Below, piece after piece: positions 1 to 15,680 of a DNA stretch of 18,688 nucleotides. The translations under genes were made by a program, and so were the position numbers. Positions within the stretch are counted from its first letter, which is position 1. Each line of letters begins with the position of its first letter. This DNA comes from Synechococcales cyanobacterium 340R_concoct_173_sub (lineage in GTDB: Bacteria; Cyanobacteriota; Cyanobacteriia; Leptolyngbyales; Leptolyngbyaceae), in NCBI GenBank assembly GCA_025354065.1, contig JANXNM010000352.1:1-18688 (forward strand), written 5' to 3'. The notes beneath the pieces were generated by a model, which was not told where the DNA came from, did not search any database, and was given only the letters and a program-made list of their open reading frames with translations.

Positions 1-282
1 TTTTTTGGACCATATGACGAAGATTATGGATATGTCACTTTAGAGTCGATGTTGGCATCGAAACCAGTTATTACTTGTAAAGATTCAGGAGAACCTACAG
101 AATTTGTAATTCATAAAGAAACGGGCCTTATTACTGAACCTGACCCAGAACAGATTGCCGATTCAATTGATACATTATACTTTCATCAGAATCTCGCAAA
201 TACAATGGGCAATAATGCTAAAGATAGATATAATCTTCTGAATATATCTTGGCAAAATGTTATCCAACATCTACTGTACTAA
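1..282 (+). CDS. GT4 glycosyltransferase, C-terminal end (5' truncated by window)
   Basis: The reading frame is open from base 1, so the gene begins upstream and only about 93 C-terminal residues are seen. They start FFGPYDEDYGYVTLESM and carry the donor-sugar-binding E-x7-E-type signature of GT-B fold, family GT4 enzymes (EDYGYVTLE). This is followed by the usual KPVIT segment, an 'EFV...ETGLI' loop and a C-terminal helix ending in SWQNVI. The family transfers a sugar from a nucleotide-activated donor to a growing lipid-linked glycan on the cytoplasmic face of the membrane. The tail closely resembles the first glycosyltransferase domain of the 801-residue protein at 1254-3659 (PYDEDYGLITIES, KPVIT, GETGYSVPPNP), so the two may be paralogues. 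The ATG at 49 lies inside the conserved motif and is not a real start. Family placement is secure, but donor and acceptor are unknown. Confidence 0.9.
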   Translation, partial: FFGPYDEDYGYVTLESMLASKPVITCKDSGEPTEFVIHKETGLITEPDPEQIADSIDTLYFHQNLANTMGNNAKDRYNLLNISWQNVIQHLLY

Positions 283-297
283 TGATGAAGTTTTTAT

Positions 298-304
298 TGA
301 GGTG
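298..304 (+). promoter_or_regulatory. Ribosome binding site of the methyltransferase-like gene
   Basis: TGAGGTG lies 7 nt before the ATG at 312. It is the clearest Shine-Dalgarno sequence in the first part of the window and fixes that start. It falls in the 29-nt gap after the upstream glycosyltransferase stop, which suggests the two genes are co-transcribed. Confidence 0.6.
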
Positions 305-311
305 AATCAAG

Positions 312-1250
312 ATGGATTATTTACAAAAAATCAGCAAAGCTATTAAGATGAGATTTTCTAAGCCTCAAAAAGAAGTATTCGATTTAAATGAATATGTATA
401 TCGTCCTCCATCAACACTACAGAATTTTACAGATAGTGTAGTGTTGTTAAGAAAATTAGGTTATGAAAATATTGTTACTTCCTCGATAGATAATATATCT
501 CCTGATGTTATAGAAGATATATTAAGTATCTTGCGTACTCACGAAATTGAATTTGTTGAGTACCAAATTGATACTTCTGCTTATAAAAAATATTTAGAAG
601 ATGCGCAATATTTAACGAAATATCCCGATTACTATATTGGTAATCAACCTGAAAAAACACTAGAACACTACGTCTCTCTTTCTCTTCTAGAAATTGATGA
701 AACGGACCAATTTATAGATATTGCTAGTGAACATTCCCCCATCCCAGAAATCTATTCTCGTTTGACTGGTGCAACCACATTTAGTCAAGATATTATGTAT
801 CCTAGTGGGATAAGTGGGAATCGCATTGGAGGAGATGCCTGCTCAATGCCTATCGCAGAGAACTTTGCTTCCAAAGCAGCTCTTACTTGCTCTTTAGAAC
901 ACTTTGAAAGTGAATCGGACATAGGATTATTTCAAGAATTAGCAAGGGTGTTGAAACCCGGCGGTAAAGTTTGCATTGTTCCTTTTTACCTATTTAATCA
1001 AGAAGCAACTCAAACCGACCCTCTAGTTAGTGTCCCAGCTAAAGTAAAATTTGATGATAACTCAGCTATTTATTGCGCAGAAGGTTGGGGCAACAGGCAT
1101 GGGAGATTTTATAGCCCAAAATCTTTCTTAGAAAGGATTGTGAATCCGATGAAAGGTAAACTAGATTTTAAATTGTACTATCTTGAAAATGCAGCCGATG
1201 TACACGAATCTGTTTATGCTAGATTTGCTTTTACTGCAACTAAGATCTAA
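312..1250 (+). CDS. Class I SAM-dependent methyltransferase-like protein (Methyltransf_11 type)
   Basis: This 312-residue protein has an N-terminal extension of about 130 residues and then a Rossmann-like methyltransferase region. QFIDIASEHSPIPEIY (133-148) sits where motif I should be. GGDACSMPIAENFASKAALT (173-192) followed by CSLEHF matches the motif II/IV region. ARVLKPGGKVCIVPF (211-225) is the well-conserved post-motif of Methyltransf_11 proteins. Enzymes of this type in polysaccharide loci usually O-methylate a sugar. Motif I is atypical: the glycine-rich D-x-G-x-G-x-G of active enzymes is replaced by D-I-A-S-E-H-S, so SAM binding may be altered or lost. The gene lies between two glycosyltransferase genes and ends 3 nt before the next start, indicating one operon. 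The fold is likely; catalytic activity and substrate are uncertain. Confidence 0.75.
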   Translation: MDYLQKISKAIKMRFSKPQKEVFDLNEYVYRPPSTLQNFTDSVVLLRKLGYENIVTSSIDNISPDVIEDILSILRTHEIEFVEYQIDTSAYKKYLEDAQYLTKYPDYYIGNQPEKTLEHYVSLSLLEIDETDQFIDIASEHSPIPEIYSRLTGATTFSQDIMYPSGISGNRIGGDACSMPIAENFASKAALTCSLEHFESESDIGLFQELARVLKPGGKVCIVPFYLFNQEATQTDPLVSVPAKVKFDDNSAIYCAEGWGNRHGRFYSPKSFLERIVNPMKGKLDFKLYYLENAADVHESVYARFAFTATKI

Positions 1251-1253
1251 TTT

Positions 1254-3659
1254 ATGAAAATTGCTATTGTCGCTCCCAGTCCAGTTCCTTTTACAATTGG
1301 TGGTTCCGAAAATCTCTGGTGGGGATTGTTAAACTGGATCAACCAAAATACAAATCATCAGGCAGAGTTAATTAAAATTCCAAGTCCTGAAAAAAATTTT
1401 CAAGAACTTGTCAGTAGTTACCAGAGTTTTTCAAAACTAGATGTGACTCATTTCGATCTAGTTATTTCTGGAAAATATCCTGCGTGGATGATACAGCATC
1501 CTAAGCATATCTGCTATATGTTACATCGACTTAGGGGATTGTATGACACCTATCATTTCACTGGTTACCCCAAAATATATTACTCGAAGGATAAAAGAAT
1601 TCTTGCATTGCAAGAATTGATGTGGAAAAATAAAGAAAGGAGAGATTCATTAGACAGATTTTTTGAAGAATTAAATGAGCTACAATTGAAAGCTAAGTTA
1701 ACATCAGATTTTTTTCAATTTCCTGGATCCCTAATAAGAGAAATCACGCATTTCTTAGATGGAATCGGTCTATCACAGCAAGAAATTATTAAATATGCTG
1801 CAATTTCCCAAAACGTGGCTAGTAGGCGGGACTATTTCCCTGTAAGCAGTACCGTTCAAGTTATTTATCCTCCTTCTAACCTTAGTTCCTTTTATACAGA
1901 TAGTAGTGATTACCTTTTTACTGTCAGTCGTCTAGACAGTGCTAAGCGTATTAGTTTGTTAATTCAAGCAATGCAGTATGTCAAAACCAATATAGAGTTT
2001 AGAATTGCTGGTACAGGTCCAGATACAGAAGCTCTTAAAGAAATGGCTAGAGGTGATGGCAGGATTACTTTTCTTGGTTTTGTAAATGACAAAGATGTTA
2101 TAGATTTGTATGCTAACGCTTTAGCAGTTTTGTATGTTCCATATGATGAGGATTATGGATTAATCACAATAGAATCAATGATGAGTGGTAAACCAGTGAT
2201 CACCACCATTGATTCTGGTGGACCAAATGAATTTGTTAAAAATGGAGAGACAGGATACTCTGTACCCCCTAATCCTCAGGCATTAGCTGAGTGCATAGAC
2301 TACCTCTGTGAGCACCGAAATGAAGCTAGACAGATGGGACTAGCAGCTCGAGAATTGGTTTCGGAAATCAATTGGAGCAACACAGTGAATCAATTATTAG
2401 GTCAAAATCTCACGACATCGGAGAAAGTGTCCATATGCGTTCCAAGTATTAGAAAACGTCAGAAAATTACAGTTGCAGTGACATTTCCTATTTTTCCTCC
2501 TAGGGGAGGTGGCCAAAGCCGGGTGTTTTATCTATACAAAAATTTGGCTAACTGGTTTGATATTGAACTAGTCACATTCACCAATAATGATCAAGCTCCC
2601 TTCCAAGGTGAAATTGCACCTAACCTATACGAAACTCGAATTCCCAAATCAATAGAGCATCAATACCAAGAGCAGCTAATTGAACAAAAAGTAGGTGTAC
2701 CAATAACCGATGTTGCGATGCCACAGTTACATAGTTTAACGCCTGAGTATTTAAAAGCTTTGAGAAAATCTATTGAACAGTCAGACTTTGTGATTGCTTG
2801 TCATCCTTATCTTTTGACCGCAATTCAATCGGTGAGTGAAAAACCAATTTGGTATGAAGCTCAGGATTGTGAATTTGAAATAAAAAAGGATATTCTTCCT
2901 AATAGCAAAACGGGAGAAGATTTACTTGAATCAACTCGCAAAGTTGAGAGAGAATGTTGTCATACTAGCCAACTAATAATGGTCTGCTCTAGCGATGATG
3001 CTCAATCTCTTATTGAGTCTTATGGTGTAGATGGAGGTAAAATAGTTGAGGTTCCCAACGGTGTAGATCTAGAAACAGTTCCTTATATTTCTTTGGAAGA
3101 ACGTAATTTAAGAAAGGTAAAATTAGGTTTAGAGGGAAGTTTCACAGCTTTATTTATAGGAAGTTGGCATCCTCCTAACTTACAGGCAGTACGCTACATT
3201 TTAAAAATAGCCGAAGAACTGCCTGATGTTAACTTTTTAATAGTTGGTAGTGTAGGATTAGCTTTTCGCGATGAACAAAAAACTAGAAATGTTGGATTTA
3301 TGGGAGTAGTAGATGATAAGACAAAAGCTACTATTTTGAGCATTGCTGATGTAGCATTAAATCCAATGAAATCTGGATCAGGAACTAACCTAAAAATGCT
3401 AGATTATCTTATGGCTGGTATACCAGTAATTTCTACGCAATTTGGTGTGCGGGGTCTAGGCATTGAAAATGATATCCACTGTATAGTTAAGGAGTTAGAT
3501 GGTTTTTCCGATGCGATTGTAAATATCAGACATGAAAATGCAAAGACCAAATACATTCGCATTGATAATGCAAATCAGTATGTTCAAGAAAAGTTTGATT
3601 GGCGAGTAATAGCAAATAATTTATATCAAAAAACTCTTTCTTTCTATCTCATTGATTGA
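1254..3659 (+). CDS. Bifunctional protein: two fused GT4 glycosyltransferase domains
   Basis: The protein has 801 residues, about twice the usual 370-420 of a single GT4 enzyme. Domain 1 (about 1-385) begins MKIAIVAPSPVPFTIGGSEN, has the C-lobe start YLFTVSRLDSAKR (220-232), IAGTGPD (251-257) and the donor motif DEDYGLITIESM (298-309), and ends SEINWSNTVNQLL. A short linker (about 386-403, with a basic KRQK at 401-404) leads to domain 2 (about 405-801). This restarts with a second N-lobe, ITVAVTFPIFPPRGGGQSR (405-423), then has VPNGVDLE (600-607), ALFIGSWHPPNLQAV (632-646), a GSGTNLKMLDYLMAGIPVIST loop (708-728) and FDWRVIANN near the end. The donor motif in domain 2 is the looser N-x-K-x-x-D-Y form. 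Two transferases in one chain could add two consecutive sugars. The start is 3 nt after the upstream stop with no clear ribosome binding site, so translation is probably coupled. Donors and linkages are unknown. Confidence 0.9.
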   Translation: MKIAIVAPSPVPFTIGGSENLWWGLLNWINQNTNHQAELIKIPSPEKNFQELVSSYQSFSKLDVTHFDLVISGKYPAWMIQHPKHICYMLHRLRGLYDTYHFTGYPKIYYSKDKRILALQELMWKNKERRDSLDRFFEELNELQLKAKLTSDFFQFPGSLIREITHFLDGIGLSQQEIIKYAAISQNVASRRDYFPVSSTVQVIYPPSNLSSFYTDSSDYLFTVSRLDSAKRISLLIQAMQYVKTNIEFRIAGTGPDTEALKEMARGDGRITFLGFVNDKDVIDLYANALAVLYVPYDEDYGLITIESMMSGKPVITTIDSGGPNEFVKNGETGYSVPPNPQALAECIDYLCEHRNEARQMGLAARELVSEINWSNTVNQLLGQNLTTSEKVSICVPSIRKRQKITVAVTFPIFPPRGGGQSRVFYLYKNLANWFDIELVTFTNNDQAPFQGEIAPNLYETRIPKSIEHQYQEQLIEQKVGVPITDVAMPQLHSLTPEYLKALRKSIEQSDFVIACHPYLLTAIQSVSEKPIWYEAQDCEFEIKKDILPNSKTGEDLLESTRKVERECCHTSQLIMVCSSDDAQSLIESYGVDGGKIVEVPNGVDLETVPYISLEERNLRKVKLGLEGSFTALFIGSWHPPNLQAVRYILKIAEELPDVNFLIVGSVGLAFRDEQKTRNVGFMGVVDDKTKATILSIADVALNPMKSGSGTNLKMLDYLMAGIPVISTQFGVRGLGIENDIHCIVKELDGFSDAIVNIRHENAKTKYIRIDNANQYVQEKFDWRVIANNLYQKTLSFYLID

Positions 3660-3700
3660 TAACTTCACCAAATGAAATCACAAACTGAGTAAATTCTGCT

Positions 3701-3730
3701 TTGACTTTACGCATGTACTTGTGTTATGTG
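3701..3730 (+). promoter_or_regulatory. Possible sigma70-type promoter upstream of rfbF
   Basis: The 101-nt gap before rfbF is the first sizeable gap in the operon. It contains TTGACT (3701-3706) and, 18 nt on, TATGTG (3725-3730), a good -35 and a poor -10 element. This could give the rfb genes their own transcription. It is a weak match found by eye. Confidence 0.25.
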
Positions 3731-3760
3731 TATGTGGGTAGCTTGGCAAAGTAAGTTGAA

Positions 3761-4537
3761 ATGAAAGTTGTATTATTCTGTGGTGGTCAAGGTACTAGAT
3801 TGAGAGAGGAGACAGAATATCGCCCTAAGCCCTTAGTGGAAGTTGGTGGAAAGCCTATTCTATGGCATATCATGAAGCTCTTTGCTCATCACGAATTAAG
3901 AGATTTTGTTTTATGTCTTGGATATAGAGGTAACATGATTAAAGAGTATTTTTTAAATTACGAAGCGATGAACAATGACTTTACAATTTGTCTGGGAAAT
4001 GCTTATAAATTGCAGTATCACAATATGCATAGTGAACAAGATTATGCTGTAACTCTTGCTGATACTGGTTTAGAAACAATGACTGGTGGTCGTTTAAAGC
4101 AGATTAGCCAGTATATTGATGATGATCTCTTTATGGTGAGCTATGGTGATGGGGTTGCCGATATTGACATTCCTGCCTTAATTTCATTTCATAAAAGCCA
4201 TGGAAAAATTGCCACAGTGACAGCTGTGCGACCCTTTTCTCGTTTTGGTATTCTCAATATTAGCGATCGCGAAGAAGTATTGGACTTTACCGAAAAGCCT
4301 CAAGTTGACGGCTGGGCTAGTGTTGGATTTTTTGTGTTTAACAGAGAGATTTTTAATTATTTAGGAGGTTCAGATTGTGTTTTAGAGCAGGAACCTCTTG
4401 AGAAATTAGCAAAAGATGGACAGCTAATGGCTTATCGCCATCATGGGTTCTTCTATGCTATGGATACCTATCGAGAATATAAATATTTGAATGAGCTATG
4501 GGAGAGTAAGAATGCACCTTGGAAGGTTTGGCCATGA
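3761..4537 (+). CDS. rfbF: Glucose-1-phosphate cytidylyltransferase
   Basis: This 258-residue protein is the usual length for RfbF/AscA/DdhA. It would convert CTP and glucose-1-phosphate to CDP-glucose and pyrophosphate, the first step of CDP-3,6-dideoxyhexose synthesis in the cytoplasm. The nucleotidyltransferase signature FCGGQGTRL (6-14) is followed by [18 protein letters not shown] (21-38), with Lys23 in the catalytic position. YGDGVADID (128-136) carries the metal-binding aspartate, [18 protein letters not shown] (176-193) binds sugar and product, and [10 protein letters not shown] (231-240) carries the second metal-ligand aspartate. HIP1 lies inside the gene (4263-4270). The stop overlaps the next start in an ATGA, so rfbG is translationally coupled. 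The specific match to this family, rather than to general glucose-1-phosphate uridylyl- or thymidylyltransferases, is supported by the adjacent rfbG and rfbH. Confidence 0.95.
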
Positions 4538-5514
4538 ATAATTTTTGGCAAGATCGGTCTGTATTAATTACGGGTTGCACTGGTTTATTAGGGAGTTGGA
4601 TGACTCAAGAACTAGTCGATCGGGGTGCAAAGGTGGTTGGAATAGTCAGAGACTGGACTCCACAATCAAGACTGTTTCAAGAAGGACTAGAGCGAAAAAT
4701 TACAACTGTCTATGGCAGGATTGAAGATCTCCCAACCTTAGAGCGCACGATCAATGAGTACGAAGTGGAAACAGTCTTCCACTTGGCAGCGCAAACTATT
4801 GTCGGGGCGGCTAATCGTGAACCACTGGCAACTTTTGAGGCAAATATCAAAGGTACATGGAATATTTTAGAAGCCTGTCGTCGAGTTGGTAAGGTAGGGC
4901 GGATTGTGGTTGCGTCTAGTGATAAAGCCTATGGCGATCAAGAAATTCTGCCCTATGACGAAACTACACCTTTGCAGGGTGAGCATCCTTATGATGTATC
5001 GAAGAGTTGTGCGGATCTAATTTGTCGAACCTATTATAAAAGTTACAACCTTCCAGTTTGTGTGACTCGTTGCGGCAATTTTTATGGCGGCGGCGATCTG
5101 AATTTTAATCGCATTGTTCCAGATACAATTCGTTCGGCTTTGCGCGATCGCTCTGTTGTAATTCGTAGTGATGGCAGCTATATTCGCGACTATTTTTATG
5201 TTAGAGATGGCGTGTTAGCCTATCTACATTTAGCTGAACAGATGGATCGTCCTGAAATTTTAGGCGAAGCTTTTAACTTTAGTAACGAGTTGCAAGTATC
5301 TGTTTTAGAAATTGTGCGTATAGTTTTAACTTTGATGCGTAAAGACCATTTGCTGCCCCAAATTTTAAACCAAGCTCAAAATGAGATTAAGCATCAATAT
5401 TTGTCGGCGGCAAAAGCTCGGCAACTTTTAAACTGGAGCCCAAGTTACTCATTGGAAGAAGGTTTGCATGAGGCGATCGTTTGGTATACGGATTTTTTAG
5501 ACTCAAAACACTAA
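4534..5514 (+). CDS. rfbG: CDP-glucose 4,6-dehydratase (SDR family)
   Basis: This extended short-chain dehydrogenase would convert CDP-glucose to CDP-4-keto-6-deoxyglucose using bound NAD+. The start is set at ATG 4534, giving 326 residues, because it forms an ATGA overlap with rfbF and has GGAAGG (4521-4526) seven bases upstream. An in-frame TTG at 4519 would add only five residues. The NAD-binding loop is ITGCTGLLG (12-20), the catalytic segment is ASSDKAYG (127-134), and the active-site pair is Tyr153/Lys157 in YDVSKS. The S-D-K context and the downstream [16 protein letters not shown] (182-197) and [11 protein letters not shown] (215-225) are typical of CDP-glucose 4,6-dehydratases. At 326 residues it is somewhat shorter than the common 355-365. 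Its position between rfbF and rfbH supports the substrate assignment. HIP1 lies at 5144-5151. Confidence 0.9.
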
Positions 5515-5565
5515 ACTAATAAATAAGCGAAATTGCTATAAGCCCAAAACTAAAAACAATTAAAA

Positions 5566-6912
5566 ATGATTAACTCAAATTCTCATTCTCCTCTCGTTAG
5601 TAATTCTGATGGAAAGGAACAAGATTTGCGATCGCAAGTTTTTGAATCTGTTAGAGCCTATTATCAATACAAGTTTCCCGAAAGAAATTTTACGGCTGGG
5701 GAAACTTATGTACCCGTATCAGGAAAAGTCTTTGATGAGTCCGAGGTTTTGAATTTAGTTGATGCATCTCTAGATTTTTGGTTGACAACTGGGCGATATG
5801 CATTGGAATTTGAAAAGCGATTTGCGGAATGGATGGGGACAAAACATTGTCTACTCGTAAACTCTGGATCTTCAGCAAACTTATTAGCCCTTACGGCTCT
5901 TACTTCTCCCAAATTAGGTGATAAGAGACTAAAAGTAGGGGATGAAGTTATTACTGTCGCAGCTGGCTTTCCAACTACAGTTAACCCTATCTTTCAAAAT
6001 CAACTAATTCCTGTTTTTGTTGATATTCAGTTACAAAGCTATGAAATTGATGTATCTCAGTTAGAGAGAGCCATTTCCCCGAAAACTCGTGCAATTATGA
6101 TCGCTCATACTTTAGGTAATCCTTTTGACATTGAAGCGGTGATGGCATTTGCTCAAAAACACGATCTATGGGTGATTGAAGATAACTGCGATGCGGTAGG
6201 GACGATATATAAAGGACAGAAAACGGGAACTTTTGGACATTTATCAACGGTAAGCTTTTATCCAGCCCATCACATGACTATGGGTGAAGGTGGGGCAGTT
6301 TTAACTAATGATCCAAAGCTCAAGAAGATCGTTGAATCTTTTCGAGATTGGGGTCGCGATTGTTGGTGTGCACCTGGGGTAGATAATACTTGCAATAAGC
6401 GATTTGAATGGCAGTTGGGCGATTTACCCTTTGGCTATGACCACAAATATACATACTCTCATGTTGGCTTTAATCTCAAAATGACAGATATGCAAGCAGC
6501 AGTGGGGCTTGCTCAGTTGGATAAGTTGTCTTATTTCATTGCTAGACGTAGAGAAAATTTCGAATTTTTAAAGCGGCAGTTGCAAGATTTACAAGATTTT
6601 TTGGTTTTACCTGAAGCTACGCCTGATTCTGAGCCTAGTTGGTTTGGTTTTCTAGTTTTAGTAAAAGACAACATTCCTTTTACTCGTAATGAATTAGTGC
6701 AGCATTTAGAGGAAAAAAGAATTGGTACTCGCCTTTTATTTGGTGGAAATTTAGTTAAGCAACCTGCTTATAAAGATTTGTCTTATAGAGTTGTTGGCAA
6801 TCTTAGCAACACCGATCATGTAATGCAGAATGCTTTTTGGTTAGGAGTATTTCCTAGCTTGACTGAAGAAATGTTGATTTATATTAGTGATGTCATTCAT
6901 CAATTTTGTTGA
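5566..6912 (+). CDS. rfbH: CDP-4-keto-6-deoxy-D-glucose 3-dehydrase (E1, PMP and [2Fe-2S] enzyme)
   Basis: The protein has 448 residues and belongs to the DegT/DnrJ/EryC1/StrS fold. It would remove the C3 hydroxyl of CDP-4-keto-6-deoxyglucose using pyridoxamine phosphate, giving CDP-6-deoxy-3,4-glucoseen for a reductase (E3) to finish. Two features distinguish it from sugar aminotransferases. The usual PLP lysine is replaced by histidine: [14 protein letters not shown] (230-243), with His235 in the lysine position. The [2Fe-2S] ligand pattern C-x57-C-x1-C-x7-C is present exactly, at Cys208, Cys266, Cys268 and Cys276. Both match what is known for the Yersinia E1 enzyme. [11 protein letters not shown] (99-109) and EDNCDAVG (205-212) are the cofactor phosphate and ring-binding segments. 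The ATG at 5566 has no clear ribosome binding site. No ferredoxin-NAD reductase-type E3 gene is seen in this window. Confidence 0.96.
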
Positions 6913-6999
6913 AAATGATAACTACAGACATCCAACTTTTTTCTGTAGGCGTTAATTGGTGAATAGATTGGATTAATGCTTTTTTAACTTTTCAAAACA

Positions 7000-7004
7000 T
7001 GGAA
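7000..7004 (+). promoter_or_regulatory. Ribosome binding site of the 700-residue membrane protein
   Basis: GGAAG lies about 10 nt before the ATG at 7015 in the 102-nt gap after rfbH. It supports that start. Confidence 0.4.
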
Positions 7005-7014
7005 GTGAATAATC

Positions 7015-9117
7015 ATGAATAAAACTAATGTAACTCTTATTCATCAATGGCTTAAAGGAATAGGTGTATTTATATTAATAGCTATCTACTTGAATATGTT
7101 TATTGTTAAATATTTTAAACAATTTAGTCAAACTGAATCTCATGACACAATACTTTATTTAGTAGTGACAGTTTCAATTTTTCTACTCCCATCTTTATTT
7201 GGTAATTTTTTGGATTTCATAAGCTTAATGTTAACAAACATAGTTAACAATTGGGAATCAAGAAGCAATAATTTGAAATTACAAACTTTATTTTCTTTCT
7301 GTTTTAGTATTATTCTAAATACAATAGCTATTCAAAGGATTTTCACTAGTAGCACTGCCGAGAGCTTTAATATTTATTTTCATCTCATTCAATTAAGAAA
7401 TGTAATAAATTACTTGCTAAATTTAAATTTTTTGTCAATCATTTTATTTTCATTTATGATGACTTGTATCTGTTTTTATTTTTTGATTGATACTATAAAG
7501 TTCCTGAAGATGATTTTTAATGAATACTTGATTTTGATAGTAGTGTCAATATTGATGTCAATAATTTGTTGGAATTTAATTGATATGGATAACGGTTTGT
7601 ATCATCTTAATGTTGTCCTTTTCCCAATAGTAGCTATTAATACAAGTTCTCCGTATGTACCGATTGTTTCTGAAGGTTTCATATCATTATATGGTGGATA
7701 CTTCCTTTGGATTGGAATATTAATCAGATTATTTGGAAACACCCTATTTTCGGTTAAAATTGTTTTAACTATTCTAACTATTCTACAAATCATTCTCTAT
7801 TTTGTGATAATTAAAATTCTAATAGAAAAACGTTTAATTAGAATTATGGTGTTTGTTAGTGGTGTATTTTGGAGTTGTTATTACGGAAAAATTTTTCTGG
7901 GAGATATTTATTTTCAATATTTTCCCTTAAGAACATTACTTCCTTCAATTTTTATTGTCTCTTCTTTTTCTCTATATAGCAATAGATTTTTCCAAAATAT
8001 TGTTGTCTCCAATTCGTTTTTTAAGATAAATTTATATGACATTTTATTGGATTTTATTGTTTCAATAGCTATTCTAAATAATCTTGATTCAAGTGCTTCT
8101 GTTCTAGTAATGTATTTGTTTTTATATAATTGGGATTTTTTGAAGTTAGGAAATTATAAAATTCAGTCAATAGTCAAGCAGTTAAGTGGATTAATTATTA
8201 ATTTAACAGTAGTTGTAGTTTCATTTTTCTTGTTTTTTAAATTATTTTCAGGAGAGATGCCTGACCTTACTGTTTTTACAGAAGTAATTACTAAATCTCA
8301 AATCTTTGGACTTCCTTTTACAGATAATTTGTGGATGCTTTTTATTGTTTTTTATTCATTCACTTTAATACAAGCTTTTACTTCTACGCGAAAAGAGGAT
8401 ACTAATGCTAGATTTAGATTTAGTGTTGCCATTTATGGCTTAACATGTATTTTCTATTTTGTAAATCGTAGCCATCCTTTTAATTTACTCTGGGTATCAC
8501 TTCCATTTTTTTTATGTTGCGGGTTTTACATTGAACAGTCATTCAACTCTTTTATTTCTCCAGAAAAAATAGCTAATTATGATTTAGAAATAAATAAATT
8601 TGGATTCGTAAATATAAATATTATTAGAGTATTGCTTTCAAACTGGCATGATTTATTGAAGCTTTCGTTTGACGGAGTTTTCATCATGCCGTTCATCATG
8701 ATATCTTTAATTGCATTTCTACAATTTGTTCCTTTAACAATTTACTTTGCTAGATCTCCTAAAAATTATTCTGAAATAGCAAATATAGAAGCTTTATCGA
8801 AGAAAGTAGCTATTCTAGAGACGAAGTTAAACCGTCCATCAATCCTTATCTCAGATTCATCTGAGTCATATTATTATCTATTCAACAATAGAAAGATACT
8901 ATATTATCCTGAATACGCAAGCATTTTTGGTGAATCTTTTAAACCTCGGTTTATCAATGCAATCAATACTTTTAATCCAATTGTCACAGTATGTAAATTG
9001 AGAATCAACCAAATTAATCCAGATAATTCTCGTGATTTTTATATTCAGGCTCTATATGAAAGTAAATATCAATTTCAGGAGTCTGAATTTGGCTGCGATA
9101 TATTTACAAAAATTTAG
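7015..9117 (+). CDS. Large polytopic membrane protein, possible GT-C-like glycosyltransferase
   Basis: This 700-residue protein consists mostly of hydrophobic helices from about residue 14 to 580 (roughly a dozen or more), followed by a soluble tail of about 110 residues. Seen features include an acidic pair after an early helix (DMDNGLYHLN, 190-199), YFQYFPLRTLLPSIF (299-313), NNLDSSASVL (355-364) and NRSHPFNLLW (484-493). The last resembles an 'R-S-H-P-x-N-L' patch found in bacterial integral membrane proteins of polysaccharide loci. GT-C enzymes use polyprenyl-phosphate sugars on the outer membrane face and have this general plan, but no family can be named with confidence. It could also be a polymerase-like or uncharacterised glycan membrane protein. 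The gene is visibly richer in A+T than rfbF-H and the SDR gene around it, and it has no HIP1 site. Frame and start are well supported; function is inferred. Confidence 0.8.
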   Translation: MNKTNVTLIHQWLKGIGVFILIAIYLNMFIVKYFKQFSQTESHDTILYLVVTVSIFLLPSLFGNFLDFISLMLTNIVNNWESRSNNLKLQTLFSFCFSIILNTIAIQRIFTSSTAESFNIYFHLIQLRNVINYLLNLNFLSIILFSFMMTCICFYFLIDTIKFLKMIFNEYLILIVVSILMSIICWNLIDMDNGLYHLNVVLFPIVAINTSSPYVPIVSEGFISLYGGYFLWIGILIRLFGNTLFSVKIVLTILTILQIILYFVIIKILIEKRLIRIMVFVSGVFWSCYYGKIFLGDIYFQYFPLRTLLPSIFIVSSFSLYSNRFFQNIVVSNSFFKINLYDILLDFIVSIAILNNLDSSASVLVMYLFLYNWDFLKLGNYKIQSIVKQLSGLIINLTVVVVSFFLFFKLFSGEMPDLTVFTEVITKSQIFGLPFTDNLWMLFIVFYSFTLIQAFTSTRKEDTNARFRFSVAIYGLTCIFYFVNRSHPFNLLWVSLPFFLCCGFYIEQSFNSFISPEKIANYDLEINKFGFVNINIIRVLLSNWHDLLKLSFDGVFIMPFIMISLIAFLQFVPLTIYFARSPKNYSEIANIEALSKKVAILETKLNRPSILISDSSESYYYLFNNRKILYYPEYASIFGESFKPRFINAINTFNPIVTVCKLRINQINPDNSRDFYIQALYESKYQFQESEFGCDIFTKI

Positions 9118-9171
9118 GCTATTGTTGATGCGGTGAAGTCAAGTTATGTAACAAAAGAGTAATTATTAAGT

Positions 9172-10230
9172 ATGAAAAATATTTTAATAGAAGACTTAGA
9201 TAGTATCCTCGATCGCACTAGATTGTTTTGGGATGAACTGCGTGGAAGCAATATATTTATAACTGGTGGTACGGGCTTTATCGGTTGTTGGCTGCTAGAA
9301 AGTTTTATTTGGGCTAACGACATCTTAAATTTGCAAGTTAAAGCAACGGTTCTCACACGCGGTGGAGAGGCTTTTTATAAAAAATCTCCACATTTGGCAT
9401 CTCACCCATCAATTTCTTGGCATTTGGGAGATGTGCGCTCCTTTGAATTTCCTATGGGAAATTTTTCGCATATTATTCATGCTGCGACTGAGGTGAATAA
9501 TTTTTCGCGAAAAACCGATTTTCGGGATCTTTTAGATGTCATCGTCGAAGGCACAAGGCATACCTTGGATTTTGCTGTAGCTTGCCAAGCTCAAAAATTT
9601 CTGTTCACAAGTTCAGGCGCTGTATATGGCAAACAGCCGAACGAGACAACTCATATTCATGAATCTTACCTTGGCGCTCCTGACACTTTAGACTTGCGTT
9701 CCATCTATGGGGAGAGTAAACGTATTGCTGAGCTACTTTGCACTATTTATGCAAGTCAATACGGTTTGGAGACAAAGATAGCAAGGTGCTTTTCGCTAGT
9801 AGGTCCTTATTTACCTTTGGATAGTCATCTTGCTACCAGTAGCTTTTTTCGCGATCGTTTACAAAATCAAACCATTCAAATTCAGGGCGATGGTACAAAT
9901 CTCAGATCATATCTATATGCAAGTGATGTAACCGCTTGGCTATGGACAATCTTATTTAAAGGTTCATCTTGCTACGCCTATAATGTTGGGTCTGAAGAAG
10001 CGATATCAATCGCAGGTTTAGCAAAAAAGATCGCGCAACTAGATTTACCCAATCTCGATGTTGCAATCGCAAAAATTGCAGATCCCCATCAATCGATAGA
10101 ACGCTATGTCCCATCTACACAAAGGGCAAAAGATATGTTAGGCTTGCATGAAACCGTTAGCCTAGAAGATGCGCTGCAAAGAACTTTAACTTGGTATGCG
10201 TCTACACGTGTAAACTATGCAAAAATTTGA
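9172..10230 (+). CDS. NAD-dependent sugar epimerase/dehydratase/reductase (extended SDR)
   Basis: This 352-residue extended SDR has an N-terminal lead of about 27 residues (ILDRTRLFWDELRGSNIFI) before the NAD-binding loop ITGGTGFIG (30-38). Further motifs are HLGDVRSFEFP (84-94), IIHAATEVN (101-109), the catalytic TSSGAVYGK (146-154), and the Tyr179/Lys183 pair in YGESK. Late features are GDGTNLRSYLYASDV (239-253) and NVGSEEAISI (271-280). The fold is certain. In CDP-dideoxysugar pathways an SDR of this kind reduces or epimerises the 4-keto product (paratose, abequose or tyvelose synthase), which is an attractive role here. Such proteins may instead act as UDP- or dTDP-sugar epimerases or dehydratases, so substrate assignment is inference. 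The 14-nt overlap with the transketolase N-terminal gene suggests tight co-expression with it. Confidence 0.88.
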   Translation: MKNILIEDLDSILDRTRLFWDELRGSNIFITGGTGFIGCWLLESFIWANDILNLQVKATVLTRGGEAFYKKSPHLASHPSISWHLGDVRSFEFPMGNFSHIIHAATEVNNFSRKTDFRDLLDVIVEGTRHTLDFAVACQAQKFLFTSSGAVYGKQPNETTHIHESYLGAPDTLDLRSIYGESKRIAELLCTIYASQYGLETKIARCFSLVGPYLPLDSHLATSSFFRDRLQNQTIQIQGDGTNLRSYLYASDVTAWLWTILFKGSSCYAYNVGSEEAISIAGLAKKIAQLDLPNLDVAIAKIADPHQSIERYVPSTQRAKDMLGLHETVSLEDALQRTLTWYASTRVNYAKI

Positions 10231-11038
10231 AGCTAAAAAACTACGGCAGAATGTTCTTAAGATGGCATATGCTGGCTCGACAGTGCATATCGGTTGTGCT
10301 TTTTCCATAGTCGAAATTCTTGCAGTATTATACCGTTCTCACCTCAATCTTGTTAATGGCAATCCCGACAATCCATTTCGAGATTATCTAGTTTTGAGTA
10401 AAGGACATGGTGTAATGGCTCAATATGCATGTATGCATGAGCTAGGCTGGTTAACCGATGAAGATATCCAAAATTACTTTCATGATGGCACTGTCTTAAA
10501 AGGATTGTCAGATACCCATGTTAAAGGACTCGAAGTTAGTTCTGGTTCTCTGGGGCATGGCTTATCTGTAGGTGTGGGTTTAGCTCTAGCCGCCAAGCGC
10601 AAGCAAACCAATCAACGCTGTTTTGCAATCGTCGGTGATGGTGAAATTAACGAAGGTGCGATATGGGAAGCTTTACTTTTTGCCACCCATTTTGAGCTTG
10701 CAAATCTACTAGTTATAGTTGATGAAAATGGCTATCAAGCAATGGGAACGACTGAAGAAGTGATGCGGCTTGGTAATATAGCTGACAAGTTTCGAGCCTT
10801 TGGCTTTGAAACGAGAGAAATAGATGGACATGATGAACTAGCACTAGATCAGACAATTCATGAATTAATGAAGTTAAATTCAAAAGCTCCCAGAGCGATT
10901 GTTGCTCATACGGTCAAGGGTAAAGGCATATCATTTATGGAAAATGATAATCGCTGGCACTATACCCGTCTTACCGATGAGGCATATAAATCTGCGATCG
11001 ACGAACTTAAGTCTCAGGAATTTGTATCAATATCATGA
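10217..11038 (+). CDS. Transketolase, N-terminal (thiamine diphosphate pyrophosphate-binding) subunit
   Basis: This 273-residue protein covers only the first domain of transketolase. It begins LRQNVLKMAYAGSTVHIGCA (9-28), with the conserved His24. LSKGHGVMAQYA (60-71) and SSGSLGHGLSVGVGLALA (108-125) give further conserved active-site histidines. The thiamine diphosphate motif GDGEINEGAIWEAL (140-153), followed by VDENGYQ, provides the GDG...N pattern (Gly140 to Asn171). HTVKGKGISFMEN (231-243) is the usual end of the domain. The partner half is the next gene, joined by an ATGA overlap at 11035. Transketolases move a two-carbon ketol unit between sugars. Split versions occur in archaea and some bacteria and are also found inside sugar-biosynthesis clusters. 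The location after an SDR in a dideoxysugar locus points to a specialised role rather than the Calvin/pentose phosphate enzyme, which is normally a single chain of about 660-670 residues. Confidence 0.93.
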   Translation: MQKFEAKKLRQNVLKMAYAGSTVHIGCAFSIVEILAVLYRSHLNLVNGNPDNPFRDYLVLSKGHGVMAQYACMHELGWLTDEDIQNYFHDGTVLKGLSDTHVKGLEVSSGSLGHGLSVGVGLALAAKRKQTNQRCFAIVGDGEINEGAIWEALLFATHFELANLLVIVDENGYQAMGTTEEVMRLGNIADKFRAFGFETREIDGHDELALDQTIHELMKLNSKAPRAIVAHTVKGKGISFMENDNRWHYTRLTDEAYKSAIDELKSQEFVSIS

Positions 11039-11955
11039 GAAATGCTTTTTCGAGTGCTTTAGTTGCCGCCGCCAAATCTGATCCGCGCATACTTTTACTG
11101 ACTGGTGATCACGGCTATGCACTGTTTGATGAATTCCGGAAAGTCTGTCCTGATCAATACATAAATGCTGGTGTTGCCGAGCAGAATATGGTGGGCGTAG
11201 CCGCTGGTTTAGCAAAGGCTGGTTTTAAACCTTTTGTCTATGGTCTAAGTGCGTTTGTGCCAATTCGCGTTTTAGAACAAATTAAGCTAGATATCTGTTA
11301 TGAGCAGTTGCCCGTAGTATTTATTGGTGATGGGGCAGGTGTCGTTTATAGTAGCTTAGGTTCTAGCCATCAAAGCACAGAAGACATTGCGGCATTACGT
11401 GCAATTCCACATATAACGATCCTGTCACCTGCCGATCGCTACGAAATGGCACAATGCATGAATCTAGCTTTGCAATCCGCTCAACCCGTCTATCTACGCA
11501 TGGGCAAGGCTGACTTGCCAAGTATTCATTCTTCGATGCCTGATGTCCATTTAGGAGAGTTATGCCGTATAAAACATGGAACTAACACTATGTGTTTTAT
11601 TGCTACTGGATCTATGGTATCAACTGCAATAACTGTTAGTGAAAAATTTGATGATGTTGCAGTTTGGAGTTCACCTTGTATTAAGCCGTTAAATGTGGAT
11701 CAAGTGAATAAGATTGCTCAATCTCATTCACTTATAGTAACTTTAGAAGAGCATTCAATATACGGAGGGCTAGGATCTGCGATCGCAGAAATAACATCAG
11801 AGTATTTTCCGACTAGAGTTTGCAGAATAGGTATTCAAGATAAGTTTTCCAAATTTTGTGGAAGTTATCAGTATTTAATGCAAGAACATCACTTAGATAC
11901 GGAATCAGTCGTTACGCAAATAAACAAATTTTGTATAAGAAGTAGTAATGAATAA
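11035..11955 (+). CDS. Transketolase, C-terminal (pyrimidine-binding and transketolase_C) subunit
   Basis: This 306-residue protein supplies the second and third transketolase domains. INAGVAEQNMVGVAAGLA (43-60) contains the catalytic Glu49 that activates the thiamine pyrimidine ring. EQIKLDICYEQLPVVFIGDG (81-100) and SSLGSSHQSTEDIAALRAIP (106-125), with a conserved His112, complete the pyrimidine domain. The C-terminal domain has FIATGSMV (188-195) and TLEEHSIYGGLGSAIAE (236-252). It should pair with the preceding gene product to form an active alpha2beta2 enzyme, since the active site lies at the interface. Fusion of the two chains would total about 580 residues, shorter than housekeeping transketolase. 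HIP1 occurs at 11779-11786. The end overlaps the gtrA-like gene by 8 nt, so the transketolase and Gtr modules appear to be one transcription unit. Confidence 0.93.
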   Translation: MRNAFSSALVAAAKSDPRILLLTGDHGYALFDEFRKVCPDQYINAGVAEQNMVGVAAGLAKAGFKPFVYGLSAFVPIRVLEQIKLDICYEQLPVVFIGDGAGVVYSSLGSSHQSTEDIAALRAIPHITILSPADRYEMAQCMNLALQSAQPVYLRMGKADLPSIHSSMPDVHLGELCRIKHGTNTMCFIATGSMVSTAITVSEKFDDVAVWSSPCIKPLNVDQVNKIAQSHSLIVTLEEHSIYGGLGSAIAEITSEYFPTRVCRIGIQDKFSKFCGSYQYLMQEHHLDTESVVTQINKFCIRSSNE

Positions 11956-12343
11956 ATCACTTTTTATTAAAACAAAAAACAGTAAGTTTGTTAAATTTCT
12001 TTTTGTTGGAGTAATCAATACTCTATTCGGTTATACCATTTTCACTCTGTTGATTTTTTTTAAACTAGACTATCATTTTGCATTACTTACTGCTACAATC
12101 TGTGGAGTACTGTTCAATTTTAAAACTATAGGATCTCTGGTTTTTGAAACCAAGAATAATAGATTGATAGTACGTTTTTTCGCAGTTTATTTGTCAACTT
12201 ACTTACTAAATATTGGATCTTTACAAATCACTAACTCACTAGGAATTAATGTGCTAGTCGCACAGGCTATTTTATTATTACCTCTAGCGATTATCTCTTA
12301 TTTCTTAAATAGAAAATTTGTCTTTAACGGTAAGAGAAATTGA
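11948..12343 (+). CDS. GtrA-like small membrane protein (candidate polyprenyl-phosphate-sugar flippase)
   Basis: This 131-residue protein has four predicted membrane helices, at about 14-36, 42-60, 74-94 and 100-121. It fits the GtrA family: it begins with a basic end then KFVKFLFVGVINTLFGYTIF (13-32), has the first conserved FNFKTIGSLVF (56-66) after helix 2, and ends YFLNRKFVF (118-126). GtrA proteins are thought to flip a polyprenyl-phosphate-linked monosaccharide made by GtrB across the cytoplasmic membrane; flipping is inferred for most members. Immediately downstream is a GtrB-like gene that overlaps it by 4 nt, as in classical gtr operons. The start at 11948 lies within the end of the transketolase gene. 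Confidence 0.88.
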   Translation: MNKSLFIKTKNSKFVKFLFVGVINTLFGYTIFTLLIFFKLDYHFALLTATICGVLFNFKTIGSLVFETKNNRLIVRFFAVYLSTYLLNIGSLQITNSLGINVLVAQAILLLPLAIISYFLNRKFVFNGKRN

Positions 12344-13269
12344 AAACAATCAGTATAGTTACACCTTGTTATAACGAAGAAGATAATGTTCAAGATGTTT
12401 ATTTTCAAGTCAAACAAATTTTCGATGATCTAGAAAAATATAACTATGAACATCTTTTTATAGATAATGCTTCTAAGGATAAAACAGTTAAAATCCTCAA
12501 AGAAATTGCTAAAGAAGACCAAAGAGTAAAGATTATCATCAACTGTAGAAATTTTGGACCTAGTCGGTCGATGTATTATGCGCTTCTTCAAACTTGTGGT
12601 GATTCAGTGGTTCTACTCCCAGCAGATTTACAAGAGCCACCTGAATTGATTCCTGAATTTATACAAAAATGGGAGGATGGTTATACAGTCATTAAGGGGA
12701 TTAAAACTTCAAGCAAGGAAAGTTTTTTGATGTATTCTTTAAGAAGTGCTTACTATTTTCTAATACGCAGAATCTCTGATATTGAACTTACTAGCCATTT
12801 TATAGGCTTTGGTCTATATGACAAAAAAGTTATAGAAGCACTTAGAGAAATTAATGATCCTTATCCTTACTTTCGTGGACTGATAGAAGAACTTGGCTTT
12901 TATAGCATCAAAGTCGAATACGAACAAAAGCAGAGAAAGAAAGGAAAAAGTAGTTATAACTTTTTTCGCTATTTTGATGAAGCCATGCTCGGCATTACCA
13001 GTCATTCCCGTATACCACTGCGACTTGCGACGATTGTAGGATTTATCATGTCTTTTCTAAGCTTGATAATTGCCTTTGGCTATCTAATTGCCAAACTTAT
13101 TTTTTGGCAGTCATTTCCACTAGGTACTGCCCCTATAACTGTTGGTTTATTTTTACTGGCTTCTATCCAACTCTTCTTTATCGGCATTATTGGTGAATAC
13201 ATCGGATTAATGCATTTGAGAATGCTTAAACGACCATTGGTTGTCGAGAGACAACGTATCAACTTTTAA
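12340..13269 (+). CDS. GtrB-like GT2 glycosyltransferase (polyprenyl-phosphate glycosyltransferase)
   Basis: This 309-residue protein combines a GT-A fold, family GT2 domain with two C-terminal membrane helices (about 230-252 and 264-288). Motifs are SIVTPCYNEEDNV (5-17), FIDNASKDKT (40-49), CRNFGPSRSMYYAL (69-82), the metal/donor motif PADLQEPPELI (94-104) and the basic loop RKKGKSSYNFFR (199-210). This layout matches GtrB and dolichol-phosphate-mannose-type synthases, which move a sugar from a nucleotide donor to polyprenyl phosphate. The predicted start is TTG 12340, overlapping the preceding TGA as TTGA. It places the protein end exactly where family members begin (MKTISIVTPCYNEE) and no ATG lies nearby. 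The sugar is not determined; glucose is the commonest in this family. Confidence 0.92.
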   Translation: MKTISIVTPCYNEEDNVQDVYFQVKQIFDDLEKYNYEHLFIDNASKDKTVKILKEIAKEDQRVKIIINCRNFGPSRSMYYALLQTCGDSVVLLPADLQEPPELIPEFIQKWEDGYTVIKGIKTSSKESFLMYSLRSAYYFLIRRISDIELTSHFIGFGLYDKKVIEALREINDPYPYFRGLIEELGFYSIKVEYEQKQRKKGKSSYNFFRYFDEAMLGITSHSRIPLRLATIVGFIMSFLSLIIAFGYLIAKLIFWQSFPLGTAPITVGLFLLASIQLFFIGIIGEYIGLMHLRMLKRPLVVERQRINF

Positions 13270-13337
13270 AACACAGATCTTTTCAAGTCATCCAATGAGT
13301 GATTCAGATCGATCATACACATTTCTTAATATTTCAC

Positions 13338-15659
13338 ATGAAAATACCACTAACAATTAAGGCTAATCCGATCACAAGGCACAGCCTATTTCTTTTCATT
13401 TTAATTTTTTGTGTTTTTGTTTTTCTTGTAATCAAAGACTTTTCCCGTTCCTTGTCAGGAACTGGTGATGTAGAATACTATGAGTATGTTGGATTTTACT
13501 TCTATAAAAATCTAAGCTTATTACCGTTCCCTCACCTTGACTTGATAAACAATCAGGCTTTCTATCCTTACGGCACGAATGGAGTTTTTCAGCCTTGGTC
13601 AATTGAAAGAGACATTTTCTATTCTATCTGCTACTCATTATTTGGTGTCGGTGCGTGGTTGCAGATATACTATATGTTGAGCGTTTTGATAACAGGTCTC
13701 GGAAGTTTTTTTTTGCTATTCAAAGATTATGGTCTTGCACGTGCTTCCAGTGCTGGGTTAGTAATTACTACATTCAGCTTCTATGCAATTTCTAAATATC
13801 CAGATCACTTTAGCATTGCAGTTTTTCATTGGACTGCTTTGAGTTTAATTTCCGACTTCATTATAACCAAAAGAATAACGTTAAAGCAAAATATATCTTT
13901 AAGACTAATTTTATGGAGAGCATGTTTACTGGTTCTGTCTTTGGGGCAGGAGTTGGGATATATTGCTGGTTGTTCATTAGCCTCATTTACGATTTCATCG
14001 GGTTGCGTCGCATTTTTGATTTATTATAGATACTTTACAGATGGGGACATAAATTTAACAATTTTAATCAAAAGTATTTCTAAAAACTATAAGATCGAAC
14101 TTATTACTTACACTCGCACGTGCTTACTTTTAGTTGCGTTACTACTGGTTGTAACTTTTATCAATCTACCTCTAGTTCTTCAAATTTCAAAAGAAGCGTC
14201 AAAATTTGATTTTACTGGAGTACCTACTGGGGCTTGGTGGGCTAACCCTCTAAGAATACTAATGCCTATTTTGCCGTTTTTTTATCCAGGGAAAATTGAT
14301 TCGATTGAGCAACTATTCCATGACTCACCAGAGGGATTTGGGGCTGGGAGCCCTGGCTGGTTTTTACTTTCCATTTCATCTATAGGTTTATGGCAAAGCC
14401 GCAAACAGATAATTATTTTTATCCCTCTGCTAGTTCTTTTGCTTTTTTGTGTCTTTTATCATCCGATCTACTTACCTGTTTTAAAAATATTTCCTTGGTT
14501 TTCATTTGCTCGTGTTCAACCTCGTTTTACTGTTATTTACCCAGTTATACTTTGTGTTTTTGCATTAAACATAAATCTAGATAATCTGCGCGTCTATATT
14601 AGGAAATCAATACTAGTAATCTTAGTAGTTTTGGCTTGTACTGAGTTTTACACTTTTTATTCATTAAAATCAAATAGCCAGACTCACGCCCCCTTACAGC
14701 CAGATTTTTTTCAATATATGGAGTACGTTAGAGATCAGCCAGGTGAAGCAGTTCTGGATTGGCCGTTTTGTGTAGTGGGAGGTAATGGAGTAGGTGGTGA
14801 TAGTCTCTGCCCGTATTATGCCAAGAATGGTTCGATTTTCGCCTTGAGAAGATTTCACAATAAAAAAGTAATGGGGCAATATTTTGGTAGGTTGCACCCT
14901 TCCCAATTAGTTCCATATCTTGAAGCTGGATGGGACAAGCTTTTTACTCCTGATAATCAAAATATTTTTCAATCAAGCCGCCAAACACGCTGTTTTAATC
15001 CAGAAGAATGGAAATTCTTTTCAGATTTCTATAAACTAAATGACTTTGCAGGTATTAATCTTTATGTAGATCTTTTGCCTAAAGATTGTGCGGAAGATTT
15101 CTATACACATTTTGAGAAACCTGTGATAGAAACGAAAGTAGCAGGTGCTGGCACTGTTAAATTCATTCCTAAACCTTCTAATCTAAGAAGTCAAGTAGAC
15201 TTAGAGTTAGGTCGAAATCTTAAATTTGAACCACTCTTGGATTTTTCTAAAAAAATTGACTTACTCGAACTTAATCAAGTCTATGGCTTAACCATAAAAA
15301 ATTTAAGTCCAATTGAAAAAAATGATGGAGATGCGTGGCGATGGGCTTTAAGCCCAGAAACTTCATTCAGGTTTAATTTGCCAAGTGATAAGCTACTTTC
15401 CCTGAGTTTCAGCTTTGCTAACTTTATTCAAAACCAAGATGTTTTGATAGAAGTTAATGGAAAAGCGTTGGAAAATTTTTCAAACATTGACAAAGGTACT
15501 ATTGTGAAACGTCAGCTTAGTTTTAAAGGTGTTTCAGGTTGGAACACTGTGGTTTTTAGATACAAATATTGGAATCATCAAAAAGTTGGCTTTGCACCAG
15601 CCGATCCACGTGAATTAACTGTCAATTTCACACAACTTCAGATTGATAATAATCGCTAG
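13338..15659 (+). CDS. GT-C-type membrane glycosyltransferase (GtrC-like third component)
   Basis: This is about 773 residues from ATG 13338. A GTG at 13299 in the same frame would add 13; neither start has a good ribosome binding site. Hydrophobic helices run from about 14 to 440 and a soluble region follows (445-773), a GT-C layout. The first outer loop contains GTGDVEYYEYV (41-51) with acidic residues typical of GT-C active sites, followed by NQAFYPYGTNGVFQPWS (72-88). HFSIAVFHWTALSL (157-170) and FPWFSFARVQPRF (385-397) also match bacterial GT-C proteins with long extracytoplasmic tails. The position after gtrA and gtrB agrees with the three-gene O-antigen modification arrangement, in which the third gene encodes the serotype-specific transferase using polyprenyl-phosphate sugar. 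Family-level role is likely; the sugar and acceptor are unknown. Confidence 0.8.
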   Translation: MKIPLTIKANPITRHSLFLFILIFCVFVFLVIKDFSRSLSGTGDVEYYEYVGFYFYKNLSLLPFPHLDLINNQAFYPYGTNGVFQPWSIERDIFYSICYSLFGVGAWLQIYYMLSVLITGLGSFFLLFKDYGLARASSAGLVITTFSFYAISKYPDHFSIAVFHWTALSLISDFIITKRITLKQNISLRLILWRACLLVLSLGQELGYIAGCSLASFTISSGCVAFLIYYRYFTDGDINLTILIKSISKNYKIELITYTRTCLLLVALLLVVTFINLPLVLQISKEASKFDFTGVPTGAWWANPLRILMPILPFFYPGKIDSIEQLFHDSPEGFGAGSPGWFLLSISSIGLWQSRKQIIIFIPLLVLLLFCVFYHPIYLPVLKIFPWFSFARVQPRFTVIYPVILCVFALNINLDNLRVYIRKSILVILVVLACTEFYTFYSLKSNSQTHAPLQPDFFQYMEYVRDQPGEAVLDWPFCVVGGNGVGGDSLCPYYAKNGSIFALRRFHNKKVMGQYFGRLHPSQLVPYLEAGWDKLFTPDNQNIFQSSRQTRCFNPEEWKFFSDFYKLNDFAGINLYVDLLPKDCAEDFYTHFEKPVIETKVAGAGTVKFIPKPSNLRSQVDLELGRNLKFEPLLDFSKKIDLLELNQVYGLTIKNLSPIEKNDGDAWRWALSPETSFRFNLPSDKLLSLSFSFANFIQNQDVLIEVNGKALENFSNIDKGTIVKRQLSFKGVSGWNTVVFRYKYWNHQKVGFAPADPRELTVNFTQLQIDNNR

Positions 15660-15680
15660 TCTTGTCAATTTGAAGTTGCA

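Follow-up and report, generated by a model that had tools for sequence, protein, structure and literature searches.

What would a transketolase split into two chains do in a gene cluster that appears to make a CDP-activated dideoxysugar? The question is raised by an 18,688-nucleotide stretch of DNA from Synechococcales cyanobacterium 340R_concoct_173_sub (the window; assembly GCA_025354065.1, contig JANXNM010000352.1, positions 1 to 18,688), in which genes for RfbF, RfbG and RfbH are followed by genes for a short-chain dehydrogenase/reductase (SDR) and for the thiamine diphosphate (ThDP)-binding half (TKN) and the remaining half (TKC) of a transketolase. A preliminary description of the window proposed that RfbF, RfbG and RfbH lead to a CDP-4-keto-3,6-dideoxy intermediate, that the transketolase is the counterpart of YerE, the ThDP enzyme of yersiniose biosynthesis, adding a carbon unit at C4, and that the SDR acts next as a reductase. 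Our analysis identifies a real, widely conserved cassette, and we consider it likely, from comparison of sequences and gene neighborhoods, that the TKN/TKC pair forms a carbon–carbon bond at C4 of CDP-4-keto-3,6-dideoxyglucose; that its donor is of the acetyl type is a tentative preference, to which we would give slightly less than an even chance.

The two halves together carry the Transketolase_N, Transket_pyr and Transketolase_C domains, the ThDP motif GDG..N and the catalytic Glu49, and the closest solved match of both is the split-chain transketolase of Carboxydothermus hydrogenoformans (6yak, 6yaj; TKN scores 188 bits against 6yak, and the TKC profile reaches 209 bits). We collected pairs in which both halves cover more than 70% of the query and lie −200 to +600 nt apart, merging identical TKC cores; in the midpoint-rooted FastTree tree of the resulting 129 pairs (128 and that of the window), the window pair belongs to a clade of 75 pairs (clade A; local support 0.976). 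The conservation of the neighborhood was judged from a TKC-profile scan of genome contigs, from which the best 80 of at least 570 relatives (at least 597 stretches) were taken, a sample of the members nearest to the query. RfbH is encoded in 65 of these 80 loci, which were chosen by TKC similarity alone, and the linkage is therefore not due to chance; within clade A the count is 64 of 75. RfbF and RfbG usually precede RfbH, the common order being RfbF-G-H-SDR-TKN-TKC, and the cassette extends over Cyanobacteria, Planctomycetes, Chlorobi, Alphaproteobacteria, Burkholderiales and further Gammaproteobacteria, among other groups. The 15 loci that lack RfbH include several on short contigs; among 10 genomes that were searched whole, five had such a locus, and in four of them (L004, L005, L027 and L078; L numbers denote loci and G numbers genomes) RfbH is encoded elsewhere.

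Even samples of genomes gave the background frequency of RfbH: 64/292 in the phylum of G001 (Pseudanabaena), 11/369 in the class of G008 (Cellvibrio; this sample follows GTDB, which places Burkholderiales within Gammaproteobacteria, and some overlap with the next sample is possible) and 30/250 in the order of G007 (Caballeronia). A TKC above 400 bits was found in 2, 1 and 3 genomes of the three samples, and all six also encode RfbH, although the survey was centered on three of the six and G003 had already been identified through L005, which leaves G768 and G799 as the new cases. The preliminary description had staked its proposal on co-occurrence across genomes, and the association of rfbFGH with split transketolase genes is indeed strongly conserved. 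The best named relatives of TKC among the matches listed are from Pseudanabaena. A plasmid origin was considered and set aside: a megablast search with positions 3761–12000 gave no plasmid match, and in a tblastn search with TKC 587 plasmid records were all below 60% identity (the top one at 37% among the 40 matches listed).

The best evidence that the pair works at the step of YerE is an exchange of the ThDP enzyme, apparent from gene order, in which both neighbors are retained, and this is seen in two architectures. In the first, RfbF-G-H-SDR1-TKN-TKC (L001, L010, L016 and L054) is matched by RfbF-G-H-SDR1-YerE-like (L250); in the second, RfbF-G-H-TKN-TKC-SDR2 (L046) is matched by RfbF-G-H-YerE-like-SDR2 (L310), where SDR1, the type in the window, and SDR2 are two kinds of reductase. 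In L323 a YerE-like gene is likewise followed by SDR2, with three open reading frames (ORFs) between RfbH and these two genes; in both L310 and L323 an ORF on the opposite strand overlaps RfbH. Since each reductase type has a YerE-like enzyme as its partner in the corresponding slot elsewhere (L250; L310), it is probable that the pair stands in for YerE; conserved co-occurrence and slot sharing thus lend support to the comparison with YerE made in the preliminary description. The exchanged enzymes belong to different families. The enzymes of L310, L250, L323 and L050 are single chains with TPP_enzyme_N, M and C domains, in contrast to the two-chain pair with its transketolase domains; the L310 enzyme scores 603 bits against the solved large subunit of an acetolactate synthase II (5ahk), and with the model for biosynthetic acetolactate synthase the L310 and L250 enzymes score 420 and 359 bits, both below the cut-off of 538.

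A survey in the other direction gave a consistent result. We fetched 100 RfbH loci irrespective of the genes after RfbH (60, 10 and 30 from the phylum, class and order samples, respectively), drawn from 105 matched genomes by omitting three cyanobacterial genomes with partial matches (G023, G036 and G197) as well as G001 and G008, which were already represented by L001 and L010; two genomes already known to have the pair, G007 (L336) and G003 (L238), are included. A split transketolase is present in 13 of these loci, a YerE-like (acetolactate-synthase-family) ThDP enzyme in 40, many of them in small cyanobacterial genomes, neither in 47 and both in none; the lack of co-residence corresponds to a Fisher p of 0.0014 when kinship is ignored.

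The active site bears on the identity of the donor. In transketolase, His103 (yeast numbering) contacts the C1 hydroxyl of the donor, and Wikner reportedly found in 1995 that it is required for substrate recognition in the yeast enzyme; we take His103 and Asp477 to be donor-binding residues. At the His103 position all 75 members of clade A have Leu (Leu97 in TKN), whereas the 54 other split transketolases have His (49), Gln (4) or Ile (1); G-H-P is found here in four full-length transketolases encoded in the same genomes, and G-Y, G-F and G-Y in three DXS proteins. The Asp477 position is also Leu (Leu108) in 75/75, as it is in 28/54 of the other pairs. The C. hydrogenoformans enzyme, in contrast, keeps both the His of G-H-P and the Asp of E-D-G-x-S-H. 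The remainder of the site is intact: across the 75 members the ThDP motif, the catalytic Glu and four His are conserved in all or, owing to a single gap, in 74, the window TKC keeps the ThDP residue Glu49 as well as His112 and Arg155, and His26 (74, with one gap) and Asp99 (75) are held in the TKC of clade A and variable in other pairs. Leu at the His103 position suggests a donor other than a hydroxyacetyl one and points toward an acetyl-like unit; because this residue is invariant in clade A and aromatic in the three DXS proteins, we favor an acetyl-like over a glycoloyl donor, and the hydroxylated unit proposed in the preliminary description is not supported.

Two other identities for the pair were tried and rejected. 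An ordinary pentose-phosphate transketolase is disfavored by the loss of the two substrate residues in clade A, and all four genomes examined (G001, G007, G008 and G010) also encode full-length transketolases. A two-chain pyruvate-dehydrogenase-like enzyme, which we take EvdU5/EvdS3 and Pau11/Pau12 to be, is disfavored by the scores of TKN (113 bits with Transketolase_N vs 47 bits with E1_dh). Three loci (L334, L270 and L278) contain two transketolase pairs, and in L334 one belongs to clade A (Leu) and the other keeps His.

The SDR of the window contains the motifs S-S-G-A-V-Y-G and Y-G-E-S-K and lacks the DE pair of 4,6-dehydratases. Within 7 kb of TKC in the 75 clade A loci, SDR1 (at least 180 bits) occurs in 31, SDR2 in 18, both in none and neither in 26. 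The SDR1 located between RfbH and the YerE-like gene in L250 is 57% identical to the window SDR and 61% identical to that of Microcystis L004; in L249 an SDR1 (50% identical to the window SDR) directly follows RfbH and is separated from the YerE-like gene by two ORFs. In L046 SDR2 comes immediately after TKC, and in L310 and L323 immediately after the YerE-like gene; in these last two its identity to transketolase-linked SDR2 reaches 62% (L310) and 67% (L323). Thus, both reductase types also accompany YerE-like enzymes, with one case each in the same slot, and this supports a reductase that acts after the ThDP enzyme. The position of SDR2 in L310 and L323 also resembles that of yerF, listed after yerE in PMC4509608, a resemblance at the level of gene order.

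For RfbF, RfbG and RfbH, conversion to CDP-4-keto-3,6-dideoxyglucose is established for the families, and the family assignments in the window agree with the intermediate named in the preliminary description. RfbF and RfbH score above the cut-offs of their curated models (Table 1), and RfbH scores 583 bits against 3bcx, a solved CDP-6-deoxy-hexulose 3-dehydrase; it contains the cysteines C208-X57-C266-X1-C268-X7-C276, and H235/H236 align with the HH of 3bcx, so the exact E1 signatures reported for this protein hold (we take C-X57-C-X1-C-X7-C together with His replacing the aminotransferase Lys to be the RfbH/E1 signature). By sequence, RfbG is the least canonical of the three: it falls below the cut-off of its curated model, which is still the top of 34 models, and it is 85–87% identical to Pseudanabaena relatives but only ~30–36% to the RfbG of most proteobacterial cassettes, with the motifs S-S-D-K and Y-x-x-x-K present. 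Its listed ORF starts at TTG 4519; ATG 4534, which gives a 4-nt overlap with the RfbF stop, is the likelier start. No E3 reductase was found among the ORFs of at least 90 aa in the window; a ferredoxin-reductase relative is encoded within 10 kb of TKC in 9/75 clade A loci.

From these assignments we propose that the cluster makes a CDP-activated, 4-C-branched 3,6-dideoxy sugar. RfbF, RfbG and RfbH, with a ferredoxin-type reductase that the window lacks, would convert glucose 1-phosphate to CDP-4-keto-3,6-dideoxyglucose; in the place of YerE, a TKN/TKC heterodimer would generate a ThDP-bound acyl carbanion that attacks the C4 ketone, yielding a tertiary alcohol with a carbonyl branch; and the SDR would reduce the branch carbonyl. 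Among the candidate units an acetyl-like one, giving a yersiniose-type octose, ranks first and glycoloyl second. The preliminary description had anticipated a different route to a 4-C-branched sugar: the route stands, and a different product is unproven, an acetyl-type unit being at least as likely.

The genes downstream of TKC suggest that the sugar is put on undecaprenyl phosphate, flipped by GtrA and then used by a membrane glycosyltransferase; the GT2 and GtrA proteins would thereby probably carry it across the membrane. The GT2 protein is below the cut-offs of both related models (PgfS, 195 bits, cut-off 500; ArnC-type PRK10714, 118 bits, cut-off 529). GtrA together with GT2 is found within 7 kb of TKC in 23/75 clade A loci; within 7 kb of RfbH the counts are 2/47 for the loci with neither ThDP enzyme and 2/40 for those with a YerE-like enzyme. 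The transketolase-type and YerE-type clusters thus differ downstream.

That difference, with GtrA and GT2 frequent beside the pair and rare beside YerE-like enzymes, is one of several observations that weigh against placing the pair at the step of YerE with an acetyl-like donor. Neither SDR1 nor SDR2 is found in the 26 clade A loci counted above, in L002 and L003, close relatives from Pseudanabaena, another SDR (31% identical) occupies the slot, and either reductase is rare with YerE-like enzymes (4/40 within 7 kb of RfbH, of which that of L333 is only 37% identical, with L323 just outside). Neither ThDP enzyme is present in 47 of the 100 RfbH loci, some of them cut by contig ends. The genome of L018 encodes a clade A pair and no RfbH above the cut-off (3.2 Mb searched whole, completeness not known); L050 and L028 (the latter cut by a contig end) contain a transketolase pair and a YerE-like enzyme in one locus; and in G006, the genome of L078, RfbH is located apart from the clade A pair and has a YerE-like enzyme next after it (L088). 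The G006 case lowered our confidence in a C4 bond made by the pair, slightly and within what we still call likely; in L050, L028 and G006 the two enzymes could catalyze two branching steps. These same loci, with the separation of pair and RfbH in the genomes of L005 and L027 as well and the tendency of unrelated pathways to gather in surface-sugar loci, count in favor of a pair with some other substrate, which might for instance produce a ketose that enters another sugar of one polysaccharide and adjoin RfbF-H only since both serve that polysaccharide. We regard this as quite unlikely, in view of the fixed order RfbF-G-H-(SDR)-TKN-TKC in distant phyla, the absence of any locus with both enzymes among the 100 and the reductase types shared with YerE-like clusters.

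If the pair does act at C4, the unit transferred may differ from acetyl. The usual donors of the transketolase fold yield a hydroxyacetyl unit, which after transfer to C4 and reduction by the SDR would give a 4-C-(1,2-dihydroxyethyl)-3,6-dideoxyhexose, and split transketolases have been proposed, although unproven, for the keto sugars of miharamycin and amipurimycin (PMC12247030). Transketolases that keep His also adjoin RfbH, in places directly, in ~2-Mb cyanobacterial genomes (L273, L277, L279 and L285): among the other split transketolases, 13/54 pairs have RfbH in the locus and 11 of these 13 keep His, a count that is not a rate, the pairs having been ascertained largely via RfbH. The assignment of Leu to the His103 position rests on a sequence alignment in which a one-residue deletion is possible. 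For clade A, Leu at that position in every member and the presence of both SDR types with YerE-like enzymes make a glycoloyl donor unlikely; it appears to fit better with the His-keeping pairs linked to RfbH. Less probable than any of the foregoing is a longer or functionalized acyl unit, like those of ErwE (erwiniose) and MMAR_2332 (caryophyllose), which would give a sugar longer than an octose: donors vary among YerE-like enzymes (PMC12247030) and L050 has both a transketolase and a YerE-like enzyme, and nothing speaks directly against it, although no gene that would supply a longer keto acid was seen among neighbor families that are only partly annotated.

An acetyl-type transfer by the pair would closely parallel the yersiniose pathway (DdhA-D, YerE and YerF), in which CDP-4-keto-3,6-dideoxyglucose is likewise processed by a ThDP enzyme and then by a reductase; the gene order of L310 resembles the published ddhA-D, yerE, yerF set (PMC4509608). 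YerE acts on CDP-3,6-dideoxy-4-keto-D-glucose, and ErwE and MMAR_2332 are YerE-like (PMC12247030); the yersiniose ketoreduction is described as uncharacterized, and yersiniose A is known from Burkholderia brasiliensis (PMC4753412). The difference is that YerE is a one-chain enzyme of the acetolactate-synthase family and the enzyme here has two chains and belongs to the transketolase family; a yersiniose product is itself putative here. The split transketolases of miharamycin and amipurimycin biosynthesis share the split genes and the suggested addition of two carbons to a keto sugar; as compared by description only, they serve Streptomyces secondary metabolites (PMC12247030) rather than CDP-3,6-dideoxy sugars of surface glycans. 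EvdU5/EvdS3 and Pau11/Pau12 are likewise two-chain ThDP enzymes, with a proposed role in attaching an acetyl branch to a 4-keto sugar (PMC10338323, for eurekanate a pyruvate-dehydrogenase-like pair; PMC4753412); these are actinobacterial enzymes of the alpha-ketoacid dehydrogenase family, unlike the transketolase family here. Among the matches listed in full-text searches of open-licence papers, none dealt with an RfbFGH-split-transketolase cassette.

The use of ketone acceptors by transketolases in the formation of branched sugars is a pending question: a 2025 review describes ketone-accepting split transketolases as proposed but unproven and names 13 candidates, all from Streptomyces (PMC12247030). 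The cassette offers natural candidates in large number, for which the probable acceptor is known, the active site has a change specific to the clade and the exchange with YerE-like enzymes provides a built-in comparison; the question is therefore directly testable. It is possible, although we place this a little further below an even chance than the acetyl donor, that a heterodimer of the transketolase family independently took over the step of YerE, as a third ThDP family that branches keto sugars, that loss of the His switched it from hydroxyacetyl transfer to acetyl transfer onto a ketone; the cassette is distributed over several phyla. If so, unrecognized yersiniose-type octoses may be present in many surface glycans of cyanobacteria and Burkholderiales, annotators could predict branched octoses in surface polysaccharides from genomes, and new catalysts for chiral tertiary alcohols would be at hand.

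The genes of the cluster lie on one strand in the order of Table 1, with the ORFs of RfbF, RfbG, RfbH, SDR and both transketolase halves located as first described. The overlaps reported between SDR and TKN (14 nt, 10217–10230) and between TKN and TKC (4 nt, ATGA, 11035–11038) were both found; the latter is kept in 50/73 relatives measured. TKC and GtrA overlap by 8 nt, and GtrA and GT2 by 4 nt.

Table 1. Genes of the cluster in the window, with the evidence for each assignment.
Feature	Position	Strand	Evidence
RfbF, glucose-1-phosphate cytidylyltransferase	3761..4537	+	TIGR02623, 333 bits (cut-off 300)
RfbG, CDP-glucose 4,6-dehydratase, divergent type	4534..5514	+	Best model TIGR02622, 234 bits (cut-off 278)
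RfbH/E1, CDP-4-keto-6-deoxyglucose 3-dehydrase	5566..6912	+	NF011936 (PRK15407), 750 bits (cut-off 423)
Polytopic membrane protein, 700 aa, possibly a GT-C type glycosyltransferase	7015..9117	+	No match in Pfam/NCBIfam
SDR (type SDR1), probable reductase of the ketone from the ThDP enzyme	9172..10230	+	Epimerase family
TKN, ThDP-binding half of split transketolase	10217..11038	+	Transketolase_N
TKC, pyrimidine-binding and C-terminal half	11035..11955	+	Transket_pyr, Transketolase_C
GtrA-type membrane protein, probable flippase of a lipid-linked sugar	11948..12343	+	PF04138
GT2, probable undecaprenyl-phosphate glycosyltransferase taking a CDP sugar	12340..13269	+	PF00535
Second polytopic membrane protein, 786 aa, possibly a GT-C glycosyltransferase	13299..15659	+	No match in Pfam/NCBIfam

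The 700-aa membrane protein between RfbH and the SDR is absent from the preliminary description; a relative is encoded upstream of SDR-TKN-TKC in Microcystis L005, the sole case in the 75 clade A loci. Upstream of the cluster, positions 1254–3659 encode a protein of 801 aa that combines two glycosyltransferase group 1 domains in one chain. No Rfam family was found in the window, and promoter-like sites between 3600 and 16300 are not in excess (49 vs 47.5 in shuffles); terminator-like sites in the same interval number 14, vs 6.6 in shuffles. An inverted repeat of 20 pairs with a T-containing tail (15974–16017, strand −) lies between the gene for the 786-aa membrane protein and a GDP-mannose dehydratase-like gene.

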